Source: Syntrophothermus lipocalidus DSM 12680 (lineage in GTDB: Bacteria; Bacillota; Syntrophomonadia; Syntrophomonadales; Syntrophothermaceae). From it: 64,000 nucleotides of DNA. The notes under the pieces are model-generated. The model was not told the DNA's origin, searched no databases, and saw only the letters and a program-made list of their open reading frames with translations. Position numbers and translations under genes: made by a program. The number at the start of each line of letters is the position of its first letter. Position 1 is the first letter of the stretch. Of the stretch, positions 49,723 to 64,000 are shown in pieces. The DNA is taken from positions 1,178,001 to 1,242,000 of the forward strand of contig NC_014220.1 in assembly GCF_000092405.1 (NCBI RefSeq), given 5' to 3'.

Positions 49723-50211
49723 TCAGTCCACCGTTACGGAATCAAGCGTGTTCCCATTTGCATCATAACCAGTAATGACTTTGGTTAAAAGACCATTACT
49801 ATCTTCTAAAACCTGAACCCATACTAATCCCTTCGGTCCATTCGAAGGTGCTTCTCCGCCACTAACGTTTACAGCCTTAGTAGAGTCTGAAGCTGTGCTG
49901 AGGTCTCCTAGATCGATAGCACCCTTTTTACCTGTAAATGGGTTTTGAAGAGCATTCGAGTTGTTTATTCTCGTTACGAGAGCCTCCCTAAAATCATTGT
50001 CGCTATCATATGTCTTGCTCGACATGCCCTCCATTATCGCTTGTACCAATCTCATGTTAGCCTGTACGCCGGCCTCTTTCGCGGACTTCTGTACTACGCC
50101 GGACCTGGGAATCAACACCGCCGCCAATATCGCTATAACCGCGATGACTATCATCAGTTCGATTAACGTGAATCCTTTTTGCTTTTTTCTCCTAATTTTC
50201 GACAGTGACAT
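49723..50211 (-). CDS. pilA: Major type IV pilin PilA
   Basis: 162 aa. KQKGFTLIELMIVIAVIAIL is the canonical type IVa prepilin signal and helix with Glu5. The remainder is a short, low-cysteine globular domain. ATG 50211 follows GGAGGAG. It lies between pilD and pilB; the 190 bp gap to pilB shows no clear terminator. Confidence 0.92.
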   Translation of the reverse strand: MSLSKIRRKKQKGFTLIELMIVIAVIAILAAVLIPRSGVVQKSAKEAGVQANMRLVQAIMEGMSSKTYDSDNDFREALVTRINNSNALQNPFTGKKGAIDLGDLSTASDSTKAVNVSGGEAPSNGPKGLVWVQVLEDSNGLLTKVITGYDANGNTLDSVTVD

Positions 50212-50296
50212 AACATCTCCTCCTTTTCTTAAATTGCCTGAAGCTTACCGATATCCTTATTCCCCGTCAGGTTCCCTCTGAGTCTCACCCCCTTCA

Positions 50297-51055
50297 CTAC
50301 GGCACCAGCAGCTTCAGGTACCAGTCGACAATTTCCTGTCCCCAGAAAAAGGCCACCAGGCCCCCGAGGGATAAAAAAGGGCCAAAGGGTATGAGATCCT
50401 TGGCACCTTTTCTGCCTGCGACTACCAGCGATAAGCCGACCAGGGCTCCGGCAACAAAAGCCACAAAAAGCCCCACCAAGGTGCCGCCCACGCCCAGGAA
50501 CAGACCCAAAACTCCTGCCAGTTTGACATCTCCCCAGCCCATACCTCCCCTGGACACGAGGATTACCAGCGCCAGGAAATTGGCGGCCCCTAGCCCTGAT
50601 GCCAGGCCCCATTTCAACCGGGCCCAAGAATCCAGGTACAGCAAAATTCCACCTGTCACCAGAGCAAAGATGATGACTTCGTCCGGTATGACCATGTGTT
50701 TCAGGTCGGCCACGGTGATGACGGTTAGGCAGGACACCAACACCCAGGCGAGTAGGACATTCCAGGAGTACCCGAACCGCGCCCAGGCACCGGCAAAGAG
50801 CAACCCGGTTATCATCTCGACCATCGGGTATTGCAGGGAAAAGGAGGTTTGGCAGTAACGGCACCTGCCTTTGAGATAAAAGTAGCTGAGCACCGGGATA
50901 AGGTCCAATAACCCTAACCTGTGCCCGCAGGCGGCGCAGTGTGAAGGGGGGGATATCACGGATTCTCCCTTAGGTAGGCGTTCGATGCAGACGTTGAGAA
51001 AACTCCCGACCGACAGGCCCAGCAAAAAAACCAACAAACCCGTCCCCAACTGCAC
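50297..51055 (-). CDS. pilD: Prepilin peptidase/N-methyltransferase PilD
   Basis: 252 aa with about eight membrane helices. The zinc-binding Cys pairs CAAC and CRYC (about 40-68) and the aspartic protease motifs DLKHMVIPD and GMGWGDVKL are present, so it should both cleave and methylate prepilins. It is the first gene behind the cyclic-di-GMP riboswitch. Confidence 0.93.
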   Translation of the reverse strand: MQLGTGLLVFLLGLSVGSFLNVCIERLPKGESVISPPSHCAACGHRLGLLDLIPVLSYFYLKGRCRYCQTSFSLQYPMVEMITGLLFAGAWARFGYSWNVLLAWVLVSCLTVITVADLKHMVIPDEVIIFALVTGGILLYLDSWARLKWGLASGLGAANFLALVILVSRGGMGWGDVKLAGVLGLFLGVGGTLVGLFVAFVAGALVGLSLVVAGRKGAKDLIPFGPFLSLGGLVAFFWGQEIVDWYLKLLVP

Positions 51056-51242
51056 TCCCCTCCCCTTTGTTCGTCTGCTGATAGGCGTAGATTAACAATG
51101 GTCTTTTCTAAAAAGTTAACCTTATTATCAAACAGTGCTGGATCTAATACGCGTAAGATTCCATCTCCGAATTATTTTCTCACCAGTTATTCATCAGCGT
51201 TAATCAGCGTCTAATTCATAAATCAGTGTCGTCTATAACACA

Positions 51243-51292
51243 AAACCCCAGAACCTAAGATATGCTACGCTGTACTTAGGAATTCTGGGGTT
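51243..51292 (-). terminator. Terminator-like hairpin of the cyclic-di-GMP riboswitch
   Basis: On the minus strand AACCCCAGAA-TT-CCTAAG pairs with CTTAGG-TTCTGGGGTT, then TTGTGTT. It starts 6 bp after the aptamer. The CCTAAG strand resembles the aptamer P1 strand (CCTTAGG), so mutually exclusive pairing is plausible. Confidence 0.75.
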
Positions 51293-51297
51293 AATTT

Positions 51298-51381
51298 CCT
51301 AAGGCAACCCGGCCGCCATAGACTCCTCGCCCTTAGGCCCGAGGCTTTGCGCCCTCACCTTTCGGTGAGTTTGCCCTTAGT
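51298..51381 (-). promoter_or_regulatory. Cyclic-di-GMP-I (GEMM-I) riboswitch ahead of the pilus operon
   Basis: The minus strand reads AAGGGCAAAC, then TCACCGAAAGGTGA, then GGGCGCAAAGCCTCGGGCCT, and ends GGCCGGGTTGCCTTAGG. These match the GEMM-I core: GCAAAC, a GAAA tetraloop on P2, CGCAAAGCC, GGCCUAA and the receptor helix. P1 is CTAAGG/CCTTAG. It is followed by a terminator hairpin and then pilD. Confidence 0.93.
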
Positions 51382-51409
51382 TGTTATGTATTCAGGCTAC
51401 TTCCACGAT

Positions 51410-51439
51410 ATTATAACCGCATTCTGGCTACCCTGGCAA
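51410..51439 (-). promoter_or_regulatory. Promoter of the riboswitch-pil operon
   Basis: On the minus strand TTGCCA (51439-51434), an 18 bp spacer, then TATAAT (51415-51410). It sits just after the pilT stop at 51468 and about 30 bp ahead of the aptamer, so the pilus operon starts separately from pilT. Confidence 0.75.
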
Positions 51440-51467
51440 CCGTTTCATTATATGGACCAGCCCGTCC

Positions 51468-52748
51468 CTAACCTCGCCTTTCCAGATACCTGGAAAGCAG
51501 GCGGGAATCGGCAGCTCTTTCCCTTGCCCGCTCCTCTGTGATCACACCCATTCTCACCAGTTCGGCCAAGGCACGATCCAGAGGTATCATCCCTTCCTGA
51601 GCTCCCGTTTCAATGATTGAAGGCACTTGATGGGTCTTACCTTCTCTGATCAGTGCTCTCGCCGCGTGGGTGACTACCAACACCTCGGCTGCACACACCA
51701 GTCCCTGCCCGTCCAGGCGCGGGAGTAACTGTTGAGATATAACTCCCTGCAGCACTGAAGCCAGCTGGGCTCTAACCTGGGATTGCTGGTGCGGAGGAAA
51801 AGCATCGATTATACGCTCCACCGTCTCCGCCGCCGTATTGGTATGCAGGGTGGACAGAACCAGGTGCCCGGTTTCGGCTGCGGTAATAGCGGTAGCTATC
51901 GTTTCCAGGTCCCGCATCTCACCTACCATTATAACGTCGGGGTCTTCGCGCAGGGCAGCCCTCAATCCTTCGGCAAAACTCTCCACGTCTTCTCCTACCT
52001 CACGCTGGTTCACAATACTCTTTTTATGCCGGTGCAAGTACTCGATCGGGTCTTCGAGGGTTATTATGTGCTTCTTAAAGTTTACGTTGATGTGATTGAC
52101 CATAGCCGCCAGAGTAGTCGATTTGCCCGAGCCGGTAGGCCCGGTTACCAATACCAACCCCCGCGGCAGTTCGGCCAGCCGCCGCACCACCAGACCCACT
52201 GAAGGCGTGCAGGGGAAGAGTTCTTCGGCCGTAGGTATTCTGCTGGCCAAAACCCGGCAGGCCACAGCGAAACTTCCTCGCTGCCGGTATACGTTTACCC
52301 GAAACCGCGAAAGCCCAGGGAGCGACACCGCGATATCGGCGTTGCCTTTCTTCTTCATCTCCTCGGAGCGGCGGGAATCCGCTACCAAACAGGTGGCAAT
52401 TTCTTCGGTTTGCACCGGATTCAGGGCATGGCCAGCCTCGGGCCACATATGTAAAAATTGTCCAACTTCCCTGCGGCCTTCGTCCGGGCCTCTGGCCGCC
52501 AGGTCTCCGAGGTCCCAAAGGACTCCGTTCAGCCTCACTACCGGAGGCTTACCCACGGTGAGGTGAATATCGGCGGCCCCCAGCCGTACCGCGCATACAA
52601 GAAGGTCGTGAAAAAACGATTCTCTTTTGTATCCTCTTCCTGCTGGACCCCCTGTGACATCGTGCTCCGCTTCTTGACGCTCATCCGGCAAAACACCAAC
52701 CCCCTGTTTATCAACCCCTATAAAGAGGCGTCTCTCTAACCAGCGCAA
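51468..52748 (-). CDS. pilT: Type IV pilus retraction ATPase PilT
   Basis: 426 aa, longer than the usual 350 or so because of a possible N-terminal extension and a short insertion (LAARGPDEGRREVGQF) in the PAS-like domain. Walker A is TGPTGSGKSTTLAAM, the Asp box EDPIEYLHR, Walker B DPDVIMVGEMRDLET with the Glu kept, the His box TGHLVLSTLHTNTA, and ALIREGKTHQVPSII is the PilT signature. The true start may be internal, since the family-like region begins near residue 43. Confidence 0.93.
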   Translation of the reverse strand: MRWLERRLFIGVDKQGVGVLPDERQEAEHDVTGGPAGRGYKRESFFHDLLVCAVRLGAADIHLTVGKPPVVRLNGVLWDLGDLAARGPDEGRREVGQFLHMWPEAGHALNPVQTEEIATCLVADSRRSEEMKKKGNADIAVSLPGLSRFRVNVYRQRGSFAVACRVLASRIPTAEELFPCTPSVGLVVRRLAELPRGLVLVTGPTGSGKSTTLAAMVNHINVNFKKHIITLEDPIEYLHRHKKSIVNQREVGEDVESFAEGLRAALREDPDVIMVGEMRDLETIATAITAAETGHLVLSTLHTNTAAETVERIIDAFPPHQQSQVRAQLASVLQGVISQQLLPRLDGQGLVCAAEVLVVTHAARALIREGKTHQVPSIIETGAQEGMIPLDRALAELVRMGVITEERARERAADSRLLSRYLERRG

Positions 52749-53866: not shown

Positions 53867-54292
53867 TCAAAAACGGTCCCCCTTTGCAAAAGGATCCAAC
53901 GTGAAGCCACCATGCTCACAGGCTTCAAGTATTTCAGGATCCCGGGTAACGATTTCTCCTCTCGTCTCGTTAGCCAGGGCAAGAACAAATGCGTCAGCGT
54001 AGGAGATGCTGTACCTGCCTTTTAGTCTGGCCGCCTCCCAGACACGCGCATTTGTAGCGGGCATAACCTTCCACGGAAAAACGTGCCTGGTAACATCCGA
54101 CATGAACAGGGCGGCATCCTGTTCGCGACCGACTTTTATCAAACGATAGACGACCTCACCAATGTTAATCGCCGAGATCCGGATATCCAGGGAACCCTTC
54201 TCGGCTTTTTCCATGAGGTCTTCTATATAAGAGGCGCCCGGTTCCTCCTGCATCCAGCACAACACAGCATAAGCGTCAAATACCTTGATCAT
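53867..54292 (-). CDS. VapC-type PIN-domain toxin
   Basis: 141 aa. The acidic residues are Asp in VFDAYAVLCW (about 6), Glu in INIGEVVYRL (about 47), Asp in SISYADAFVLALA (about 100) and Asp in IVTRDPEI (about 118), a complete PIN active site. It overlaps the AbrB-type antitoxin gene by 17 bp. Confidence 0.92.
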   Translation of the reverse strand: MIKVFDAYAVLCWMQEEPGASYIEDLMEKAEKGSLDIRISAINIGEVVYRLIKVGREQDAALFMSDVTRHVFPWKVMPATNARVWEAARLKGRYSISYADAFVLALANETRGEIVTRDPEILEACEHGGFTLDPFAKGDRF

Positions 54293-54527
54293 CCCCGACC
54301 ACCTCGAGCCTGTGTTCTTCTAGGTGTCCCTGAAGTGCCTGATCTCCTTTCAAGGCCCCCTTCCAGCGGTGCCAGTCGGTTTCGGTTAGCGGCTCAACGG
54401 GTTCAAGAATTATCCTGCCCCCGATTAAATCTACTTTCAACTGTTCGCCGGGCTTAAGCCCAAGATGTTCCCTTATTTTCTTAGGAAGAACTAGCTGTCC
54501 TTTTGAAGACAATCGGACTATCGACAT
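54276..54527 (-). CDS. AbrB/MazE-type antitoxin
   Basis: About 83 aa. VRLSSKGQLVLPKKIREHLG and LKPGEQLKVDLIGGRIILEP form the SpoVT-AbrB swapped-hairpin DNA-binding domain. The C-terminal 35 residues bind the toxin. ATG 54527 has AGGGGG 9 nt upstream; the frame to 54581 has no signal. Confidence 0.92.
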   Translation of the reverse strand: MSIVRLSSKGQLVLPKKIREHLGLKPGEQLKVDLIGGRIILEPVEPLTETDWHRWKGALKGDQALQGHLEEHRLEVVGDDQGI

Positions 54528-54695
54528 GACCAATACCCCCTTTCTTACTTTCATTGTAAGACAGCTTTTCCCGAGGCACAACCTTTTCTACCTAAGGGAT
54601 GGCAACAGACACATATCAGCTTTTCGGCTCCCACTTGCGGTCCTCCCCAACTTCTAGCACTCCCATTTTTCCAGACGCGCTTGGGTTTCTTTTCA

Positions 54696-54787: not shown

Positions 54788-55540
54788 TTATTTAAACTCG
54801 TAGTAGAGTATCCCGTTGGGGTCAACCTTCTTCAATGCCTTGAGTTCTTCCTCAGTGGGAGGAGGCACTACTGGTACGTCTGTTTCTTCGATTTCCCAAC
54901 CCGTATTCGCTTTTACTTCTTCGACTGTAGTGTACGGGAATATGCAGTCTAACTTGAGAAACTTCTCTCCGGCCGGCTTTCGGAATATGCACAGTGGCGT
55001 TATTACCGTGAACGGCTTATCTACAGCCGGAGCAGTGGTAGCAAACTGTACGTGGGGCACAAAAGTTCTGGTATCATGCTGCGGCTTCCAAATGATCGTA
55101 CGCTTAGTAACAGGGGTCAAAGTAGCGCTCCCTGCTCCACCTGGCCCTCTCAGCTTGGGATGGTCATAGTCTTTTCCGCCTAAAACCGACATCGCAATAC
55201 GCCCGGACTTGTCCATCTGCAAACAGGACAGAAACGCGATATCGCCTTTCCCTGAAGCATAGAGGTCGAATATCTCATCCAGTCCGAAAGTAGCCACCGA
55301 ACCCTCGTAAGTGTTAGCCGTAAGAGTCGAAGCCACGTATGGCGGGTTTTGCCAGTTGTGGTCAACCCCGTCACTTAAAGTGACATAAGTGAAGTCTTTG
55401 CCTAGAGCTTTTGCAGCCTTCATCGCTACCATGGGAGTCGGCGAAGCCAGGCCATGGAATACAATATCCCCGTCTTGAATCTCACGAATGATGGCTACCG
55501 CCATCATTTCCGCTTTGCCGTAGTCCTTGCCATATTCCAT
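54788..55540 (-). CDS. Family I CoA-transferase beta subunit, atypical active site
   Basis: 250 aa, glutaconate CoA-transferase B-like. HGLASPTPMVAMKAAKALG, CLQMDKSGRIAMSVLGG and LRGPGGAGSATLTPVTKRT match the family. At the position of the catalytic Glu (FTEGG in the paralogue at 57863-58657) it reads TLSDG, with Ser56/Asp57 instead. So it may be inactive as a transferase, use another residue, or serve a different reaction. It is the last gene of the operon; its alpha partner contains an in-frame UGA. Confidence 0.85.
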   Translation of the reverse strand: MEYGKDYGKAEMMAVAIIREIQDGDIVFHGLASPTPMVAMKAAKALGKDFTYVTLSDGVDHNWQNPPYVASTLTANTYEGSVATFGLDEIFDLYASGKGDIAFLSCLQMDKSGRIAMSVLGGKDYDHPKLRGPGGAGSATLTPVTKRTIIWKPQHDTRTFVPHVQFATTAPAVDKPFTVITPLCIFRKPAGEKFLKLDCIFPYTTVEEVKANTGWEIEETDVPVVPPPTEEELKALKKVDPNGILYYEFK

Positions 55541-55542
55541 GT

Positions 55543-56364
55543 CTAAAGCCTCCCTTCCAGCATTTTCGCCGCAAACTGGGGAACCTCTTCCGCCTTGACC
55601 GCTTTCTGGTAGGCTTTATGCGTGTCCCAGTCCACCGTGACGTACTCGGGGTAGCATATCCCGTGTTTCGCCCCACCCGGCAGCTCTACTACCGCCTCCA
55701 CCAAAAAGTGAGGGATGGCCGTCAGTTTCGGCTCTTCCTGCATCCGGTAAGTGCCGACAATCCGTTCCGTTGTCAGTATTACCTTCTTAGCTGCCCGCGC
55801 CATCAATGGGTCCTGATAACTAGGTCCTAGTATCCTGGCATTTCCGTAAATGTCCGCTTCCTGCACGTGAATTATTGCGTAATCGGGCACTAAGGCCTTT
55901 ACACATACTACTTCTTCGTCGCCGAATGGGCTCTTCATTACCTGGTAGAACTCAGGCCGAAGACCTACCAAATCACTTCCCCACATACCGCCGACCGGCA
56001 TAAATGGGATTCCGTATGCTCCCGCACGGAGAGCGTGGATTATGGCAGTTCAGGAACCTTCGATGGCTTTAGCCTTCGGTTCCTCCCCTTCCATAGCCTT
56101 CCGCATCCCCGGAGCCAGACCAGCTTCATTTTCGAGCCCAAAGAATCCGAAATAAGCTGTATCTGCCTGGCCCGTTGCGAACAAAACATCTGCTGCGATT
56201 CCCAGCGCCGCACCGCACACCTTGAGATCCTTCACCGGCCTCTGAGTCAGGGCCAGGGAAAACAGTAGTGGATTGCGGTGCATGCCGTTTCCCCCGATGG
56301 CAAGCAGCATGCCATCTTTGACCAGGTCTACGGCTTGTGACAGAGACACTACTTTCTCTTTCAT
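55543..56364 (-). pseudogene. Family I CoA-transferase alpha subunit with in-frame UGA (pseudogene or selenoprotein)
   Basis: Two open pieces in the same frame, codons 1-104 and 106-273, are separated only by TGA at 56052-56050. The first reads SLSQAVDLVKDGMLLAIGGN to KAIEGS; after the TGA comes TAIIHALRAGAYGIPFMPVG. Together they are a full-length GctA-like subunit. Right after the TGA a hairpin (GCUC-u-CC, loop GUGC, GGGAGC) begins, with its loop 23 nt downstream, as in bacterial SECIS elements. Selenocysteine, nonsense mutation and sequencing error are all possible. ATG 56364 follows AAAGGAGG. Confidence 0.8.
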
Positions 56365-56422: not shown

Positions 56423-57742
56423 CTAGCTCAGAGCGCTCTTTTCTTTCTGAGTTGCATAGACCACCAAGCCAACGATCAGTGCTACGAAGCAGAAGAGGAA
56501 AGCCGACTTAAAGGCAGTAGCAGGGATAAGTTGAGCAGCCGTGGTCGGGTACTTCGCGATGATCGCAGCCATAACTTGCTGGAACACAGCTCCACCGACG
56601 AATACGAACACGTTCAGATAACCGGTGGCCGTCCCCTGAATTTGCAGGTCAACGTTTTCTTTCAGGTTAGCGTACATTACTACAAAGAATCCGCCGAAGA
56701 AACCGTATACGAAGAACAGCACCTTCAGGAACGCAGGAGACATGGTATTAGTCATCCATATCAGGGGTATCCAGGTCAAGAGGTAGATCAGGGTTCCGCC
56801 AAAAACCACTTTCTTCCTGCTCTTCAGTATCCGGTCAGAAATGATCCCTGACAGCGGGCAGCCAAAAATCATGCCTAGAGGAATAAGGCTCAACACCTTA
56901 CCTGCGGCTGCTTTGTCCATTCCGTACACGTTCATCAGGTAGGGACCAGCCCACAGTCCCTGGAATCCCATGATGGTTCCGTAGAGGATAAAGAACAGTA
57001 CCGATATGGTCCAGAAGTTGTAGTTCCGCGAAATTATGGCCAGGGCTTGCCCGATGCCTAACGACGGCCCTGCTGTTCCAGCTACTACGGTCCCTTCAAT
57101 CTCAGGTATGCTGGCTCCGCCAACTTCGTGGGGCTTGTTCCTAATGAACAAATAAGCCAAAAGCGCAATAACCATCGAAATTACGCCCACTGAGATCATC
57201 GAGCTTCTCCACCCGATGGCGGCCATCAGAGCTACCAGAGGAGCAGCCGAAGCTAGAGACCCAATGTTACCCACAGCTAGCAGCAGTCCCGAATAGGTTG
57301 CAAACTCGTTCTTCTTGAACCAGTCAGCCAGTATCCGCATAGCCGGCACATAGACGAAACCTACCCCAAACCCGACCAGGAATCTTCCAACAAGTGCCGT
57401 GCTAAACGTACCCGCCATTCCGAAGATTATAGCTCCGATGCCGGCAATGAACACGAACAGAGCCATGGTCTTGCGGGCTCCCCACCTGTCCGCCAAAATC
57501 CCGGCCGGCAACTGTCCCAAAGCGTAAGCGTAGAAGTACATCGATCCGAACAATCCCAGGGCAGTTGGAGCGATGTTAAAAGCTTTAGTCAGTTCCGGAG
57601 CCATGACGGCTGCCGAAGTGCGGTGGAAATACACGAAGAAATAAGCCAGAGCCACTACCAGGTATATGATGTACCGGTAAGACAGGGTTTTTTGAATCAT
57701 CGCCTTGGTTACGCCTTTTGCTTCCGATACGATTTCCGCCAT
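56423..57742 (-). CDS. MFS carrier between two CoA-transferase pairs
   Basis: 439 aa, twelve membrane helices. YFHRTSAAVMAPEL in the first loop and LPAGILADRWGARKTMALF, the MFS loop 2-3 motif, are clear. It resembles anion or organic acid:proton carriers of the glycerol-phosphate/hexuronate type. Flanked by CoA-transferase genes, it probably imports or exports the acid they handle; the substrate is unknown. Confidence 0.85.
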   Translation of the reverse strand: MAEIVSEAKGVTKAMIQKTLSYRYIIYLVVALAYFFVYFHRTSAAVMAPELTKAFNIAPTALGLFGSMYFYAYALGQLPAGILADRWGARKTMALFVFIAGIGAIIFGMAGTFSTALVGRFLVGFGVGFVYVPAMRILADWFKKNEFATYSGLLLAVGNIGSLASAAPLVALMAAIGWRSSMISVGVISMVIALLAYLFIRNKPHEVGGASIPEIEGTVVAGTAGPSLGIGQALAIISRNYNFWTISVLFFILYGTIMGFQGLWAGPYLMNVYGMDKAAAGKVLSLIPLGMIFGCPLSGIISDRILKSRKKVVFGGTLIYLLTWIPLIWMTNTMSPAFLKVLFFVYGFFGGFFVVMYANLKENVDLQIQGTATGYLNVFVFVGGAVFQQVMAAIIAKYPTTAAQLIPATAFKSAFLFCFVALIVGLVVYATQKEKSALS

Positions 57743-57862: not shown

Positions 57863-58657
57863 TTACTTCTTACGGAGCGAGCCGGTTACGTCTACTGCCC
57901 GGAGATTTGCTAGTTCTTGTTCTGTGGGTTCCGGAATAACTTTTACGTCGGGTGATACCTTTAATTCCCATCCGGTATTTGCTTTGATTTCGTCGATGGT
58001 TGCATAGGGGAAGTAGGCATCTAGATAAAACTCTTTAGTAACAGGATCCGGGCGCAAAATGCCTAACGTCGTAATTATGGCAGAGGGCCCTCCGCCTGGG
58101 AAACCGTACTTCTCACGGTCGTTACCGCCGTTGATATAACCGGGAGAGGAGATGTAGTCTACCTTATCTACGAAACGTTTCTTTTCGTGGGTTACCATGA
58201 TGATATAACGCTTGCATCCAACCGCGATTTCGTTCGCTCCCCCGCTGCCGTTCAGACGTACCCGCGGTAAGGTGTACCTCCCGACTTTCCACGGCACCTG
58301 GTCTGGATCCCAGATTCCGGTCGTATTAACATTGCCGTACTTATCGATTTGAGCTGCCCCGATTATCCCCACATCGCAACGACCGGAAGCAACCAGGCAA
58401 CCAAGAGCGTCAATGGCATTGGTAAAGCTGGTCGCGTTCGCGGAAATACGGTTGCACTCAATGCCCCAAGGGAGTCCTCCTACCGGAGTTGAGCCGAAAA
58501 CTCCGCCCTCGGTAAAAGCCATCAGATTAGGAGCGTGGTTTTTAATGGCAAAATACCCGGCAAGCATACTCAAGCCCACACCGAATATGGCCAGTTCACC
58601 ATCGCGCAGTTCCCTTCCGGTTACTATTGCCATGAATTCCTGTCTACTGTAATCCAT
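57863..58657 (-). CDS. Family I CoA-transferase beta subunit, intact active site
   Basis: 264 aa, GctB-like. The catalytic Glu is in AFTEGGVFGS (Glu50), which forms the glutamyl-CoA thioester in this family. GRCDVGIIGAAQIDKYGNVN and RLNGSGGANEIAVGCKRYII are the other blocks. It follows the alpha gene at 58689 and precedes the carrier gene. The acid substrate is not identified. Confidence 0.9.
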   Translation of the reverse strand: MDYSRQEFMAIVTGRELRDGELAIFGVGLSMLAGYFAIKNHAPNLMAFTEGGVFGSTPVGGLPWGIECNRISANATSFTNAIDALGCLVASGRCDVGIIGAAQIDKYGNVNTTGIWDPDQVPWKVGRYTLPRVRLNGSGGANEIAVGCKRYIIMVTHEKKRFVDKVDYISSPGYINGGNDREKYGFPGGGPSAIITTLGILRPDPVTKEFYLDAYFPYATIDEIKANTGWELKVSPDVKVIPEPTEQELANLRAVDVTGSLRKK

Positions 58658-58688: not shown

Positions 58689-59690
58689 TTATTGCCCGCT
58701 CTCGGCCTGAGCTGCCTTTTCCAGCTCAGCGATTTCTTCGTCGCTCTTGATCCATTTCCGGTACGGATCCATCAAAAAGGCGGTAGGAGTGTCGGTGAGT
58801 TTTTCGATCTTTTCTTTACCGATGACCTCTAAATATTCTTCCCTGGTGTTGTAGCTGTAGACGTACTTCTGCAGGTATTCCTCGGTGCCCTCAGGGGTTG
58901 CCAAGGCCTTGTTCATGTAGAACATGTGCTCTTCGTCGCTGTCATACACCCCGGTGGAGCAGGCCGGCCATACTCCCAGCGGCCAGTAGACTACGGCATT
59001 GACCACTTCGCCCGGGATTCTGACCAGGTTCGGAAACTGTCTCATGCAGTCTGTGTCCACTATGAAGTCGGCCTGCAACACAACTTGCTTAGCAGCTCTC
59101 GACAATTCGTAACGGCTCCATTCCGTCCCCAGCATAATGGCGTTTCCGTAGATATCGGCCATGGTAACGTGGATCACTGCTACGTCGGGCTTTATAACTG
59201 GGAACGCCCAACACTTTTTGCCGGTAAAGGGGTCAACGATCTCAGGAGTCTTATTCTGGGCCGGATACTCGTCCGGCTTGTCTGCCCAACACCACTGCTG
59301 GTCGCAGCCGATGTTTACGGTAGCCGGTATGAAGGGCCAGTTTAAGGCTCCGCCCAGAAGCCTTAGCGGGATAGCTCCGTTGGAGTAGTCTTCAAGAATA
59401 GTTTGTCCGGTTTCCACCGCTCTTCTCAAACCGTTGGCAAACCCATAGACCTCCAAACCGCTGAATCCTACTTCGATCCTGCGAACGGCCCCCACTGCGG
59501 CCAAGAGGTTGGACTGCTGGGTATTACAGTTGGATATCAGGTTAAGGTCCTTTCTTCCTTGCTTTACCATTTCCCGCCCAAAGGCGATGGAATCAGATCC
59601 TACTGGCAGGGCGCCGCCGTGGGCGTAGGTCATTCCGTCCCACGTGTATTTCTTGACAGCCTCTTGCATCGATATCAGCTTGTTACGCAA
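58689..59690 (-). CDS. Family I CoA-transferase alpha subunit
   Basis: 333 aa, GctA-like. It has MQEAVKKYTWDGMTYAHGGA, LEDYSNGAIPLRLLGGALNW and HVTMADIYGNAIMLGTEWS. Partner of the beta subunit encoded 31 bp downstream. TTG 59690 follows GGAGGG. It is longer at the C-terminus than the second alpha subunit at 55543-56364. Confidence 0.9.
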   Translation of the reverse strand: MRNKLISMQEAVKKYTWDGMTYAHGGALPVGSDSIAFGREMVKQGRKDLNLISNCNTQQSNLLAAVGAVRRIEVGFSGLEVYGFANGLRRAVETGQTILEDYSNGAIPLRLLGGALNWPFIPATVNIGCDQQWCWADKPDEYPAQNKTPEIVDPFTGKKCWAFPVIKPDVAVIHVTMADIYGNAIMLGTEWSRYELSRAAKQVVLQADFIVDTDCMRQFPNLVRIPGEVVNAVVYWPLGVWPACSTGVYDSDEEHMFYMNKALATPEGTEEYLQKYVYSYNTREEYLEVIGKEKIEKLTDTPTAFLMDPYRKWIKSDEEIAELEKAAQAESGQ

Positions 59691-59964: not shown

Positions 59965-60819
59965 CTAATATAACCCCTTCGCTCTCAATAAAGGAAGCGG
60001 TGATGTTAACAACTTGTTCAGGCCCAACTCCTTAACCGAGTGTCCGAACGCAAGACCCATTAACTGGGTAAAGTAGATTATCGGTAACCCATACCTGACT
60101 CCGCGCTCGGCCTCTACCAGTGACTGCCTGGTATCCAAATTAGTCTGGCATAACGGGCACCCGACCACTATTGCTTCGGCTCCCGCCTGCTTCGCAGCCT
60201 CCAATATTTCCCCAGACAGCTGAACCACTATCTCGGTCTGGCACGCAGCCATGCCCGCGCCGCAACACTCAGCTTTGTGGGACCAATTGACAGTTTCCGC
60301 TCCGAGAACTTTCAACAAATCATCCAATACCCTGGGCTGCTCCGGGTCGTCGAACCTGGTAAGCCCCCGCGGCCTGGTCAAGAGACAGCCATAGTAAGCC
60401 GCCAAACGAAGCCCTGACAGTGGCCGTTTCACCTCCTGGGCTATGGTTTCGAGGCCGACCTTCTCAACCAGAAACTGCAATACATGTGATGCCTCCACCT
60501 GTGAGCCTTGCGGGCTTTGCTTATTGGCCCCAATGCTTTCTTTCAGCGTGGACTCAGCCGTTTTTAGCCGGCTGTAACACCCGGCACACGGCGTCGTAAC
60601 AGTAGTAAGCCCCATCTTTTCCACCAATCTCAGATTGCGAAAATTCAATTCCAAGGCCAGGGAATGATTCAAACTATGAGCCGCGCTGGCCCCGCAACAG
60701 TTCCAATCCTCTACCTCGTGAAGGACGAGGCCCAGGTGACGACAGACCACCGCTGTGGACAGTTGGTATTCACGGGACATCCCGTGGCCAGAACACCCGG
60801 GATAATATGCAACCTCCAT
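59965..60819 (-). CDS. HdrB-like heterodisulfide reductase subunit (CCG domains)
   Basis: 284 aa. Two cysteine-rich CCG domains are present: YYPGCSGHG with WNCCGASAAHS and TPCAGCYSR, then YYGCLLTRP with KAECCGAGMAACQ and VGCPLCQTNLD. In HdrB these bind unusual iron-sulfur clusters where disulfide reduction occurs. It is the fifth gene of the Hdr block and is next to hdrC-like 60824-61381; it is related to, but distinct from, the HdrB at 62450-63391. Confidence 0.9.
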   Translation of the reverse strand: MEVAYYPGCSGHGMSREYQLSTAVVCRHLGLVLHEVEDWNCCGASAAHSLNHSLALELNFRNLRLVEKMGLTTVTTPCAGCYSRLKTAESTLKESIGANKQSPQGSQVEASHVLQFLVEKVGLETIAQEVKRPLSGLRLAAYYGCLLTRPRGLTRFDDPEQPRVLDDLLKVLGAETVNWSHKAECCGAGMAACQTEIVVQLSGEILEAAKQAGAEAIVVGCPLCQTNLDTRQSLVEAERGVRYGLPIIYFTQLMGLAFGHSVKELGLNKLLTSPLPLLRAKGLY

Positions 60820-60823
60820 CTTC

Positions 60824-61381
60824 TTATCCCTCCTTCCCCGGCCTGTATAACTTGAACAGCTTTCTTACCGCTCGCCGGTCCCTGACTCCCGGAACAAACG
60901 GCATCATTTTCCCCTTAAAGAACAGCCTCTGACCAAGCTTGACATCCTTTGTATATTGGCCAGTCTTTAGATTAAACCTCAGTGCCAGTTCCGCTTCCGA
61001 CACTCTTCCGCGCTTAAACACATGGTCTAACATCAGCTTATTGAACAAAAACACATGGTTGGTTTCCGATACGACTCCTTCGCCACAGCTCATTTCTCGC
61101 AGGTAATCCATGATCCTAGGTATATCAATGGCTGCCGGGCACCGGTCCTGACACAGGTGACAGCTCACGCAGACCCATATCGCCTTGCTCTGCAACAACG
61201 CTTCTTTGGCTCCTAGTTTTATAAGCTGAATAACTTGCCGCGGCGTGTAGTCCATAAGGTAGGCCGTCGAACATCCACCCGAGCACTTACCACACTCGTA
61301 ACAGCAACTCAGGTCGACCCGGCAGTCATTTTCAATTTGTTCTTGTAACGTCGAGCTGGTAGCATCCAGCTGAATCGGCAT
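60824..61381 (-). CDS. HdrC-like iron-sulfur subunit
   Basis: 185 aa. Two 4Fe-4S motifs: CCYECGKCSGGCS (about 26-38) and CVSCHLCQDRCP (about 68-79), followed by a helical C-terminal region, as in HdrC. It passes electrons between HdrA- and HdrB-type partners. It is 4 bp ahead of the HdrB gene. Confidence 0.92.
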   Translation of the reverse strand: MPIQLDATSSTLQEQIENDCRVDLSCCYECGKCSGGCSTAYLMDYTPRQVIQLIKLGAKEALLQSKAIWVCVSCHLCQDRCPAAIDIPRIMDYLREMSCGEGVVSETNHVFLFNKLMLDHVFKRGRVSEAELALRFNLKTGQYTKDVKLGQRLFFKGKMMPFVPGVRDRRAVRKLFKLYRPGKEG

Positions 61382-61411
61382 CCCTTTCCCCTCCTAACTT
61401 CACACGGCTGC

Positions 61412-62446
61412 TTACCGGGAAAACAGGGCTATGACTTCCGCAGCCGCAGCCGCTCCCTGCTCTCGCGCCCCCGGTATATCAACAGGGAACCCGCTTCCAC
61501 CGGCAAAGAAGACCTTATCCGCGCTTCTTACCGGGCTCATGCCGTCATCTTCCAAGAACCCGTACTCATCTGTCTTCGCACCGAACATCTTCGCAAGCTC
61601 TACCGTTTCCTTCCTCGCCACTGCCGCTCCCGCCAAAACGATCATGTCTACCCTTATTTCAATCGGGTTACCCATAAGCGTATCTTCCGCTCGGATTAAC
61701 AGCCGTCCCGCGTCGGGTATCACCTTGGCCGGCCTACCCCTAACGTATCTAACCTTCTTGTCCTCAATTGCCCGGCGCACAAACTCCTCGTATCCTTTGC
61801 CTGCTGCCCGGATATCCATGTAGAAGACATAGCAAGCAGTGGTTGGCGAGAGTTCCTTCACCATAGCCGCTTGTTTAGCGGTATACATGCAGCAAATCTT
61901 AGAACAGTACGGGTAGCCTTTTGACCGGTCCCTGGATCCCACACACTTGAAAAACGCTATGGCCTTGGGTATGTTTTGGCGATATCCTAACTGGCGCCAT
62001 CCCTTCAGCATTCCCTCGAATTCAACCGCACTTACAACCCCGTTATATGTCCCGTAGCCATATTCTCCGTAAGCCGACAGGTCAAAGTAGTCAAAACCGG
62101 TAGCTATCACGACCGCGTCTACGTTTACATCTGCAACCGTATCATCTGCGGTCTGTTTCAAACTTACTCTGAAGCCTTCACCGTCGCGCTGCCCCCCGAC
62201 AACCGTTGTTCCGGTTTTGACCACGACTTTTCCGCTTTCCTCAATGAGCCTCAGGCTATTGGCCAACATGGCCGAAGTATCCTCGTTGCGTGGAAAGGTC
62301 CCTGCCAGAAGATTCAGGCGTCCTCCCAAAACTGACTCCCTCTCCACCAAAATCACATCATGACCGGCTTGGCCAATTTTGACAGCTGCTTCTATACCTG
62401 CCGGGCCTCCTCCAATTACTAGAGCCGTTTTGCCTGTGCTCTCCAT
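61412..62446 (-). CDS. HdrA-like flavoprotein
   Basis: 344 aa, shorter than classical HdrA. ALVIGGGPAGIEAAVKIGQAG is the FAD-binding loop, FKCVGSRDRSKGYPYCSKIC the conserved Cys region (Cys throughout, not selenocysteine), and VFFAGGSGFPVDIPGAREQG the C-terminal FAD motif. It lacks the N-terminal and C-terminal ferredoxin-like extensions of full HdrA. It sits centrally in the Hdr block and is the likely flavin branch point. Confidence 0.9.
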   Translation of the reverse strand: MESTGKTALVIGGGPAGIEAAVKIGQAGHDVILVERESVLGGRLNLLAGTFPRNEDTSAMLANSLRLIEESGKVVVKTGTTVVGGQRDGEGFRVSLKQTADDTVADVNVDAVVIATGFDYFDLSAYGEYGYGTYNGVVSAVEFEGMLKGWRQLGYRQNIPKAIAFFKCVGSRDRSKGYPYCSKICCMYTAKQAAMVKELSPTTACYVFYMDIRAAGKGYEEFVRRAIEDKKVRYVRGRPAKVIPDAGRLLIRAEDTLMGNPIEIRVDMIVLAGAAVARKETVELAKMFGAKTDEYGFLEDDGMSPVRSADKVFFAGGSGFPVDIPGAREQGAAAAAEVIALFSR

Positions 62447-62449
62447 AAA

Positions 62450-63391
62450 CTAGACTCCTTTCAGTCCAAGTTTTTCCAGTACCCCGTTAAGCGGTACAGT
62501 ATTGGCTTTGAAACCGAGCTTTTCTACCGGTACTCCAAGCGCTAACGCTATGAGTTGACCTAGGTCGATAACCGGAATATTGATTTCTCCATGACCGTTC
62601 CTGGCCAGGTTGGGTTGTTCCCTGTCTAGAGCCACGTTACACCCTGGACAAACCGTGGTTATGAGTTCTACGCCCGCTTCTTTAGCACTTCTCAGTTTCT
62701 TGCCCAGGTGAGGCTGCACCACCTCTTCTCGGTGGGTAAATCCCCTTCCCACCGAATAGCCACAGCAGGTCCTTCCCTCCTTATACGTAACAGGGGTAGC
62801 TCCCAAGATTTCAAACAATTCTTCGTGGAAAGTTGGTAGATCGCCGTCGTCAAGGATCCCGTACTGCTGGGCCAGGTAGTGACACCCGTAATGGGCGGCC
62901 ACCCGCAGCCCATTCAAAGGGCGTACCACTTTTGAAGCAATCCGGTCTTTTAAACGGTAGTATAATTCCTGAACGTGAAAGATGTTTGTCCGTCCCTTAT
63001 ACTCGTAGCCCCACCGTCCAATAAGATCGTTCGCCATTTTGAGATAATCCGGATTATGCAGAAGAATATGTGAAAGCTCCTTATTATACCCGAAACACCC
63101 GTTACAAAAGACGTAGGTATCCAGCCCCTTGGCTTCTACTAAGGCCAAGTTTCGAGCGGTAGCCGCCAGTGACACTTCTGGCAAGTACCCAGAACAGGTC
63201 AGGAGATACCCGGAACAACATGTCTGGTCCGGATCCATTACTACTTCAATACCCAAAATCTTCATTATCTCTTTGATTGCATTTTCGGTACCGGGATACT
63301 CGAGACTTCCGGTACAACTGCGAAACAGGAATATCTTTTCTGGAATCTCGGGTATCCTTTTTTCTACCGGAATCACTCTAGCTTTATTCAT
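62450..63391 (-). CDS. HdrB-like heterodisulfide reductase subunit (CCG domains)
   Basis: 313 aa. FLFRSCTGSLEYPGTE with DQTCCSGYLLTCSG and VFCNGCFGYNK form the first cysteine-rich domain; AAHYGCHYLAQQ, GRTCCGYSVGRGF and TVCPGCNVALD form the second. It overlaps the HdrC gene end by 8 bp and is followed by HdrA after 3 bp, so the three are tightly coupled. Confidence 0.92.
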   Translation of the reverse strand: MNKARVIPVEKRIPEIPEKIFLFRSCTGSLEYPGTENAIKEIMKILGIEVVMDPDQTCCSGYLLTCSGYLPEVSLAATARNLALVEAKGLDTYVFCNGCFGYNKELSHILLHNPDYLKMANDLIGRWGYEYKGRTNIFHVQELYYRLKDRIASKVVRPLNGLRVAAHYGCHYLAQQYGILDDGDLPTFHEELFEILGATPVTYKEGRTCCGYSVGRGFTHREEVVQPHLGKKLRSAKEAGVELITTVCPGCNVALDREQPNLARNGHGEINIPVIDLGQLIALALGVPVEKLGFKANTVPLNGVLEKLGLKGV

Positions 63392-63983
63392 AAATTATCC
63401 TTCCTTCCCGGTACTTGAACTCCACAGGTTTTTCCTTGCTTTCGTCCAGAGCCTCGAGCCACTCTGTGGTACCGGTCAAATCGAAAAGAGCCTGGTACTC
63501 GCTTCTGGCTTTGTCCGAAACCTCCGGCCAGGGGGTCATTCCTGCTTCGCTACGAATCTTCATAACTCTTTCCTTGCCCTTAGCACCCGGAACAAAGGTC
63601 ATCGCGTCTTCGCGGGCTTTCAAAGCAAAACGCTTGAAAGGCAGCACGTATTTAAGCCCGAAGTTGTGTTCGATGGCCTTGTAGCGTATCTGCATCATCA
63701 GTAACGGGTAGTGTATGTCGCTCGGGCATACCCTGTAACAGTTAGCACACCAAAAGCAGCGCCATATCTCTTCACTCTGAACCAGGCGAGACAGATTGCC
63801 CATAAGGACATCCCGGATGATCTGTCTTGGGTTATAGGAAGGGGTGATAGCCGCCACCGGGCAGTTTCCCACGCACTTTCCACAGGTCAAGCAGGCATCG
63901 AGGTTGCCTACCAAGTTATACCTATCCACTATTCTGTCTAGTCCCTGCACCCACTGGGTGTCGCTTTCTCTGGGCACAGCCAT
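63384..63983 (-). CDS. HdrC-like iron-sulfur subunit
   Basis: 199 aa. CLTCGKCVGNCP (about 32-43) and CFWCANCYRVCP (about 74-85) are two 4Fe-4S sites; the helical C-terminus resembles HdrC. The start is ATG 63983 because GAGGAG is 5 nt upstream; the TTG before it is too close. It is the first complete gene of the Hdr block; the operon may continue upstream beyond the window. Confidence 0.92.
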   Translation of the reverse strand: MAVPRESDTQWVQGLDRIVDRYNLVGNLDACLTCGKCVGNCPVAAITPSYNPRQIIRDVLMGNLSRLVQSEEIWRCFWCANCYRVCPSDIHYPLLMMQIRYKAIEHNFGLKYVLPFKRFALKAREDAMTFVPGAKGKERVMKIRSEAGMTPWPEVSDKARSEYQALFDLTGTTEWLEALDESKEKPVEFKYREGRIIYE

Positions 63984-64000
63984 CAACGCTCCTCTGTCTT

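Follow-up and report, generated by a model that had tools for sequence, protein, structure and literature searches.

The locus lies in a 64,000-nucleotide stretch of the Syntrophothermus lipocalidus DSM 12680 genome, referred to here as the window. On its minus strand, two adjacent genes, here called alpha and beta, both match the Pfam family CoA_trans (PF01144; 1.2e-21 and 1e-11), and the alpha gene is interrupted by an in-frame UGA with a hairpin directly after it (Table 1). Next to this pair are an MFS transporter gene, a paralogous alpha-beta pair, and five Hdr-like genes.

Table 1. Features of the alpha-beta locus and its operon (positions in the window)
Feature	Position	Strand	Remarks
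Beta subunit gene	54788..55540	-	Leu at transferase Glu position; PGGAGSA loop retained
Alpha subunit gene	55543..56364	-	273 aa with predicted Sec105 when UGA is read through
SECIS-like hairpin GCUCUCCGUGCGGGAGC	56018..56034	-	Loop CGUGC at 56024-56028; synonymous constraint, compensatory changes
In-frame UGA, codon 105, predicted Sec	56050..56052	-	Homologs keep TGA or Cys
MFS transporter of operon	56423..57742	-	Pfam MFS_1; gene order conserved
Paralogous beta subunit	57863..58657	-	Catalytic Glu (TEGG)
Paralogous alpha subunit	58689..59690	-	Asn at Sec column
HdrB-like protein 1	59965..60819	-	
HdrC-like protein 1	60824..61381	-	
Short HdrA-like flavoprotein	61412..62446	-	
HdrB-like protein 2	62450..63391	-	
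HdrC-like protein 2	63384..63986	-	

The alpha frame runs for 104 codons to the TGA and then stays open for 168 sense codons up to a real stop, in agreement with the first-pass annotation, which had described a single frame split by TGA at codon 105. The window has 69 TGA stops at the end of frames of at least 90 codons; only after the one in the alpha gene does the frame stay open for another 168 codons or more (1/69). We rejected a chance open frame on this comparison, as the other 68 stops all lacked such a continuation. The paralogous alpha subunit carries Asn at the aligned position, as had also been claimed.

Conservation of the in-frame UGA

A search of 63 genomes from the class gave 14 full-length orthologs (with the window's own gene counted among them; 77-100% identity), and each of the 14 contained a single stop, which was always TGA. 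Codon 105 was TGA in 17 sequences that we inspected individually, two of which were ~60% identical. A scan of 398 genomes of the phylum added seven homologs with TGA at the Sec column, which come from other families and are 38-61% identical, and three with Cys (L094, L095, and L098). Cys, encoded by TGT, also occupied this column in L071 (57% identity), and another class yielded seven more UGA homologs with the motif [DE]HxU. The total came to 31 distinct UGA sequences and four Cys homologs (L071, L094, L095, and L098). The alignment of homologs proposed as a check in the first-pass annotation thus returned UGA or Cys at codon 105 in relatives of the gene, so that the refuting case of Trp, Arg, or Gly did not arise; Cys was the only replacement in the U/C groups, where we found no Trp or Arg.

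These counts bear on the possibility of a nonsense mutation, sequencing error, or pseudogene, the first of which had been put forward as the simpler alternative to selenocysteine. The standard code reads UGA as a stop, and default annotation would split the gene there. However, many species, at identities as low as 38%, share the TGA at this codon, the sequence downstream of it is conserved, Cys replaces it in some relatives, and the hairpin is constrained. Because the UGA is conserved in many genomes, a nonsense mutation is excluded, and a pseudogene or sequencing error is likewise ruled out; we assign such explanations a negligible probability.

The [DE]HxU motif marks a second group of UGA-containing alpha genes (L096, L097, L099, and L120-L126), with a hairpin of another kind (GGC loop on a 7-bp stem) and other gene contexts, e.g., amidohydrolase-like genes. 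Directly downstream of the Cys pair L071, we observed a gene for a YedF-type selenium-metabolism protein (TIGR03527, 118 bits; L115:9630-10010).

The hairpin and the selenocysteine machinery

The hairpin was located where it had first been described, with the G of its GUGC loop 23 nt after the UGA. Its upper stem had been drawn with a bulged U. Comparing 17 orthologs, we found 102/102 cells paired when the 6-bp stem was drawn without interruption, with a U-G wobble that never varies and CGUGC as the loop; the bulged-U stem was paired in 97.1% and also explained fewer compensatory changes. The hairpin itself is upheld, and a bulge may form, but the continuous wobble stem fits the covariation better. 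A scan of the alpha gene against Rfam matched no family, and the loop is unlike that of the Escherichia coli fdhF type.

Selection on the hairpin was also visible in codon usage. Among 17 UGA sequences, the strongest synonymous-codon constraint of the gene fell on codons 111-116, which are the hairpin (codon identity 0.74 observed vs. 0.25 expected). A second peak, at codons 267-272, overlaps the probable ribosome-binding site for beta and served as a control. The 6-bp stem was paired in 126/126 cells of the EGSU group (21 sequences), with 7 double changes, while slid controls reached at most 66%; for the 10 sequences of the [DE]HxU group, the values were 98.6% pairing of a 7-bp stem, 10 double changes, and slid controls of at most 44%. 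The corresponding stretch barely folds in the Cys homologs L094, L095, and L098 (-2.6, -4.4, and 0.0 kcal/mol), and a weaker hairpin is retained in the Cys homolog L071 (-7.5 kcal/mol).

The first-pass annotation had also suggested looking for the genes of selenocysteine synthesis and insertion, and all were present in the genome: a tRNA-Sec (73 bits, anticodon UCA), SelB (402 bits) adjoining SelA (593 bits), and SelD (377 bits). The SelD gene, too, has a TGA within its frame, after which comes a hairpin with a stem of 7 bp and the loop GGG (G000:C1:2373934-2374854); SelD is itself a selenoprotein and a useful positive control. SelB scored above the cut-off in all seven UGA genomes of the phylum scan and in all 12 further genomes tested. 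We considered whether the Cys forms arose through loss of SelB and rejected this explanation because the Cys-bearing genomes carry SelB, too.

In combining a UGA, a SECIS-like hairpin, Cys homologs, SelABD, and tRNA-Sec, the alpha gene resembles known prokaryotic selenoproteins. The Sec apparatus and the UGA and Cys of relatives lend strong support to the original proposal of selenocysteine with a SECIS-like hairpin, and these sequence data make it almost certain that Sec is inserted at codon 105, where SelB, bound at the hairpin just 3' of the UGA, would deliver Sec-tRNA(Sec). One could instead imagine that the UGA is read as another residue, or that a short product is programmed and the hairpin regulates translation, as a hairpin located before the start of beta might in principle make ribosomes pause. 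Yet, homologs in the U/C groups have Cys and never Trp or Arg at the Sec column, the genome has a complete Sec machinery, and the hairpin is weaker or absent in the Cys homologs, all of which leave this reading very improbable.

Paired residues in the two subunits

The residue at the Sec column of alpha was matched by the residue at the transferase Glu position of beta. Where alpha had Sec (31) or Cys (4), beta had Ile, Leu, or Val in all 35 pairs (35/35); where alpha had Asn (39) or His (11), beta had Glu (50/50). With alpha Glu (3), beta had Thr or Pro, and there were zero exceptions in 88 gene pairs. In the tree, however, one supported deep branch separated the U/C/E rows from the N/H rows (SH-aLRT 97), and the alpha/beta exclusivity counts as only one to two independent pairs. 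Because the tree has essentially this single deep split, the pattern marks a clade, and we rejected repeated co-evolution of the two positions. Inside the U/C/E clade, the Sec label changed at least three times on supported branches. In three Bacillota relatives (L100, L101, and L102) on the Sec/Cys side of the tree, Glu fills the Sec column and beta lacks its Glu, which gives them an IpdAB-like appearance.

Nearest characterized relatives

When alpha was read through the UGA, its predicted fold had a mean pLDDT of 94 and a pTM of 0.92, with residue 105 as the first of the helix following the 99-102 strand. The nearest solved structure was IpdA, from the COCHEA-CoA ring-cleaving hydrolase IpdAB (PDB 6CO6, 6CO9, 6COJ, and 6CON), which was the closest match to alpha both in fold and as a single sequence. 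Residue 105 is the one mutated in 6COJ, an entry titled IpdAB E105A, and a profile alignment placed Sec105 opposite IpdA Glu105 without gaps, opposite Gln in GctA, and opposite Gly in AibA. Because AibA has Gly and GctA has Gln there, this column is not always catalytic. IpdAB resembles our pair in having a beta subunit without the transferase Glu, and it showed no transferase activity (PMC5380842). It differs in sequence (~28% identity), in its steroid substrate, in having Glu rather than Sec or Cys at residue 105, and in having Gly at the beta Glu position (PMC5380842) vs. Leu or Ile here.

Beta was nearest to AibB by both sequence and fold, and its closest solved relative is thus AibA/AibB, a 3-methylglutaconyl-CoA decarboxylase (PDB 5MZW and others). 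The transferase Glu is replaced in both, and AibAB breaks a C-C bond of an acyl-CoA by decarboxylation and withstands the loss of its beta Cys (PMC7756340). That Cys (56 of AibB) lies in beta and not alpha, and the AibAB-type Cys was absent from the beta Glu position in the window, where we found Leu.

With glutaconate CoA-transferase (GctAB, PDB 1POI) and family I in general, the pair shares the PF01144 fold in both subunits and the alpha-beta gene order, but it has no catalytic beta Glu and has Sec in alpha vs. Gln, Asn, or His. The first-pass assignment to the family I CoA-transferases holds for the fold and the Pfam family; the catalytic Glu of that family is missing from beta, and transferase activity is probably absent. 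Because beta is without this defining residue in every U/C member found, a transferase function is improbable, and from sequence we judge that the pair is very probably not a classical CoA-transferase.

It could still transfer CoA in a Sec-dependent manner, with a selenoester on the alpha Sec replacing the anhydride on the beta Glu. The PF01144 match of both subunits, the retained glycine-rich loop of beta, and the occurrence of Sec exactly where the beta Glu is lost fit such a reaction. However, chemical inference suggests that a selenoester would activate a free carboxylate less directly than a Glu anhydride, the operon already has a canonical Glu-bearing transferase, and neither IpdAB nor AibAB, the nearest relatives that lack the beta Glu, is a transferase. 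Overall, we consider Sec-dependent CoA transfer unlikely.

Operon context

In Syntrophomonadaceae, the pair is usually last in a cluster of the order HdrC-HdrB-HdrA-HdrC-HdrB-GctA-GctB-MFS-alpha-beta. Hdr genes are adjacent to the EGSU homologs of other families as well, with fewer detected at L108. In one genome (L082), the Sec pair comes directly after the Hdr genes, and the canonical transferase is missing between them; in L083 and L087, a thiolase-like gene adjoins the Sec pair. The [DE]HxU and Cys groups occur in other contexts, with no Hdr genes nearby. Because of these differing operons, one substrate shared by all groups is unlikely, and the groups probably differ in this respect.

This context raises the possibility of a redox role, in which CoA-SH or some other thiol is joined to Sec as a selenenyl-sulfide and the HdrBC-HdrA complex reduces or oxidizes the Sec. 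The EGSU group is strongly operon-linked to five Hdr-like genes, and most characterized prokaryotic selenoproteins are redox proteins, the majority thioredoxin-like (PMC13188914). By contrast, we looked in alpha for the partner Cys of a CxxU or UxxC motif and found none, the fold itself is non-redox, and Hdr genes are not near the [DE]HxU and Cys groups. A redox role therefore appears improbable, slightly more so than CoA transfer.

Three further features of the neighborhood were observed. The Hdr-like genes (59965-63986) have the order C-B-A-C-B with a short HdrA, an order like that of the sulfur-oxidizing sHdr cluster, and are found here in a relative of fermenting syntrophs. Beside the operon, two small overlapping ORFs (53867-54581) have the look of an AbrB-type antitoxin and a PIN-domain toxin (VapBC-like). 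Genes like those for type IV pilin, prepilin peptidase, and PilT ATPase lie at 49723-52748.

Discussion

Taken as a whole, the pair is likely a Sec-dependent selenoenzyme with the glutaconate CoA-transferase fold, and its proposed reaction is the cleavage of a C-C bond in an acyl-CoA. For C-C bond cleavage as the reaction, argued from the analogy with IpdAB and AibAB, we see a somewhat less than even chance. Sec would sit at the start of a helix, in the position of IpdA Glu105, where we infer an active-site role. The partner subunit keeps the glycine-rich loop and has Leu in place of the Glu that forms the acyl-anhydride in transferases, such that CoA transfer between acids would most likely be absent. 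The selenolate, or Cys in some relatives, may instead act as a nucleophile or in acid-base catalysis on an acyl-CoA, leading to cleavage of a C-C bond. Precedents in the same fold are the retro-aldol ring hydrolysis by IpdAB and the decarboxylation by AibAB. Within the operon, a substrate might be taken up by the MFS transporter, activated by the neighboring canonical transferase, and then passed to the Sec enzyme, with electrons from the pathway possibly reaching the Hdr-like complex.

The 119 families of prokaryotic selenoproteins inventoried in 2026 include no CoA-transferase or PF01144 member (PMC13188914), although the family may have been named earlier elsewhere. No CoA-transferase selenoprotein is in PMC12013277 either, and alpha has no selenoprotein model of its own in NCBIfam (June 2026). 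The genes described here apparently represent an undescribed, widespread family of selenium enzymes that act on CoA compounds. More tentatively, the catalytic residue may have shifted from the beta Glu to the alpha Sec, which would make this the first selenoenzyme with covalent (selenoester) Sec catalysis on acyl-CoA, widespread in anaerobes and encoded by genes that are likely annotated as split genes or pseudogenes.

Most characterized selenoproteins are redox proteins, whereas here Sec is predicted to occupy a catalytic position in a fold of acyl-CoA enzymes, and the partner subunit has lost the standard nucleophile. This family accounts for seemingly broken CoA-transferase genes in many genomes and opens the function of a conserved double-HdrBC operon to experiment. 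If the proposed chemistry is true, Sec would have a further, new role in catalysis, and syntrophic anaerobes would have a new class of enzymes.
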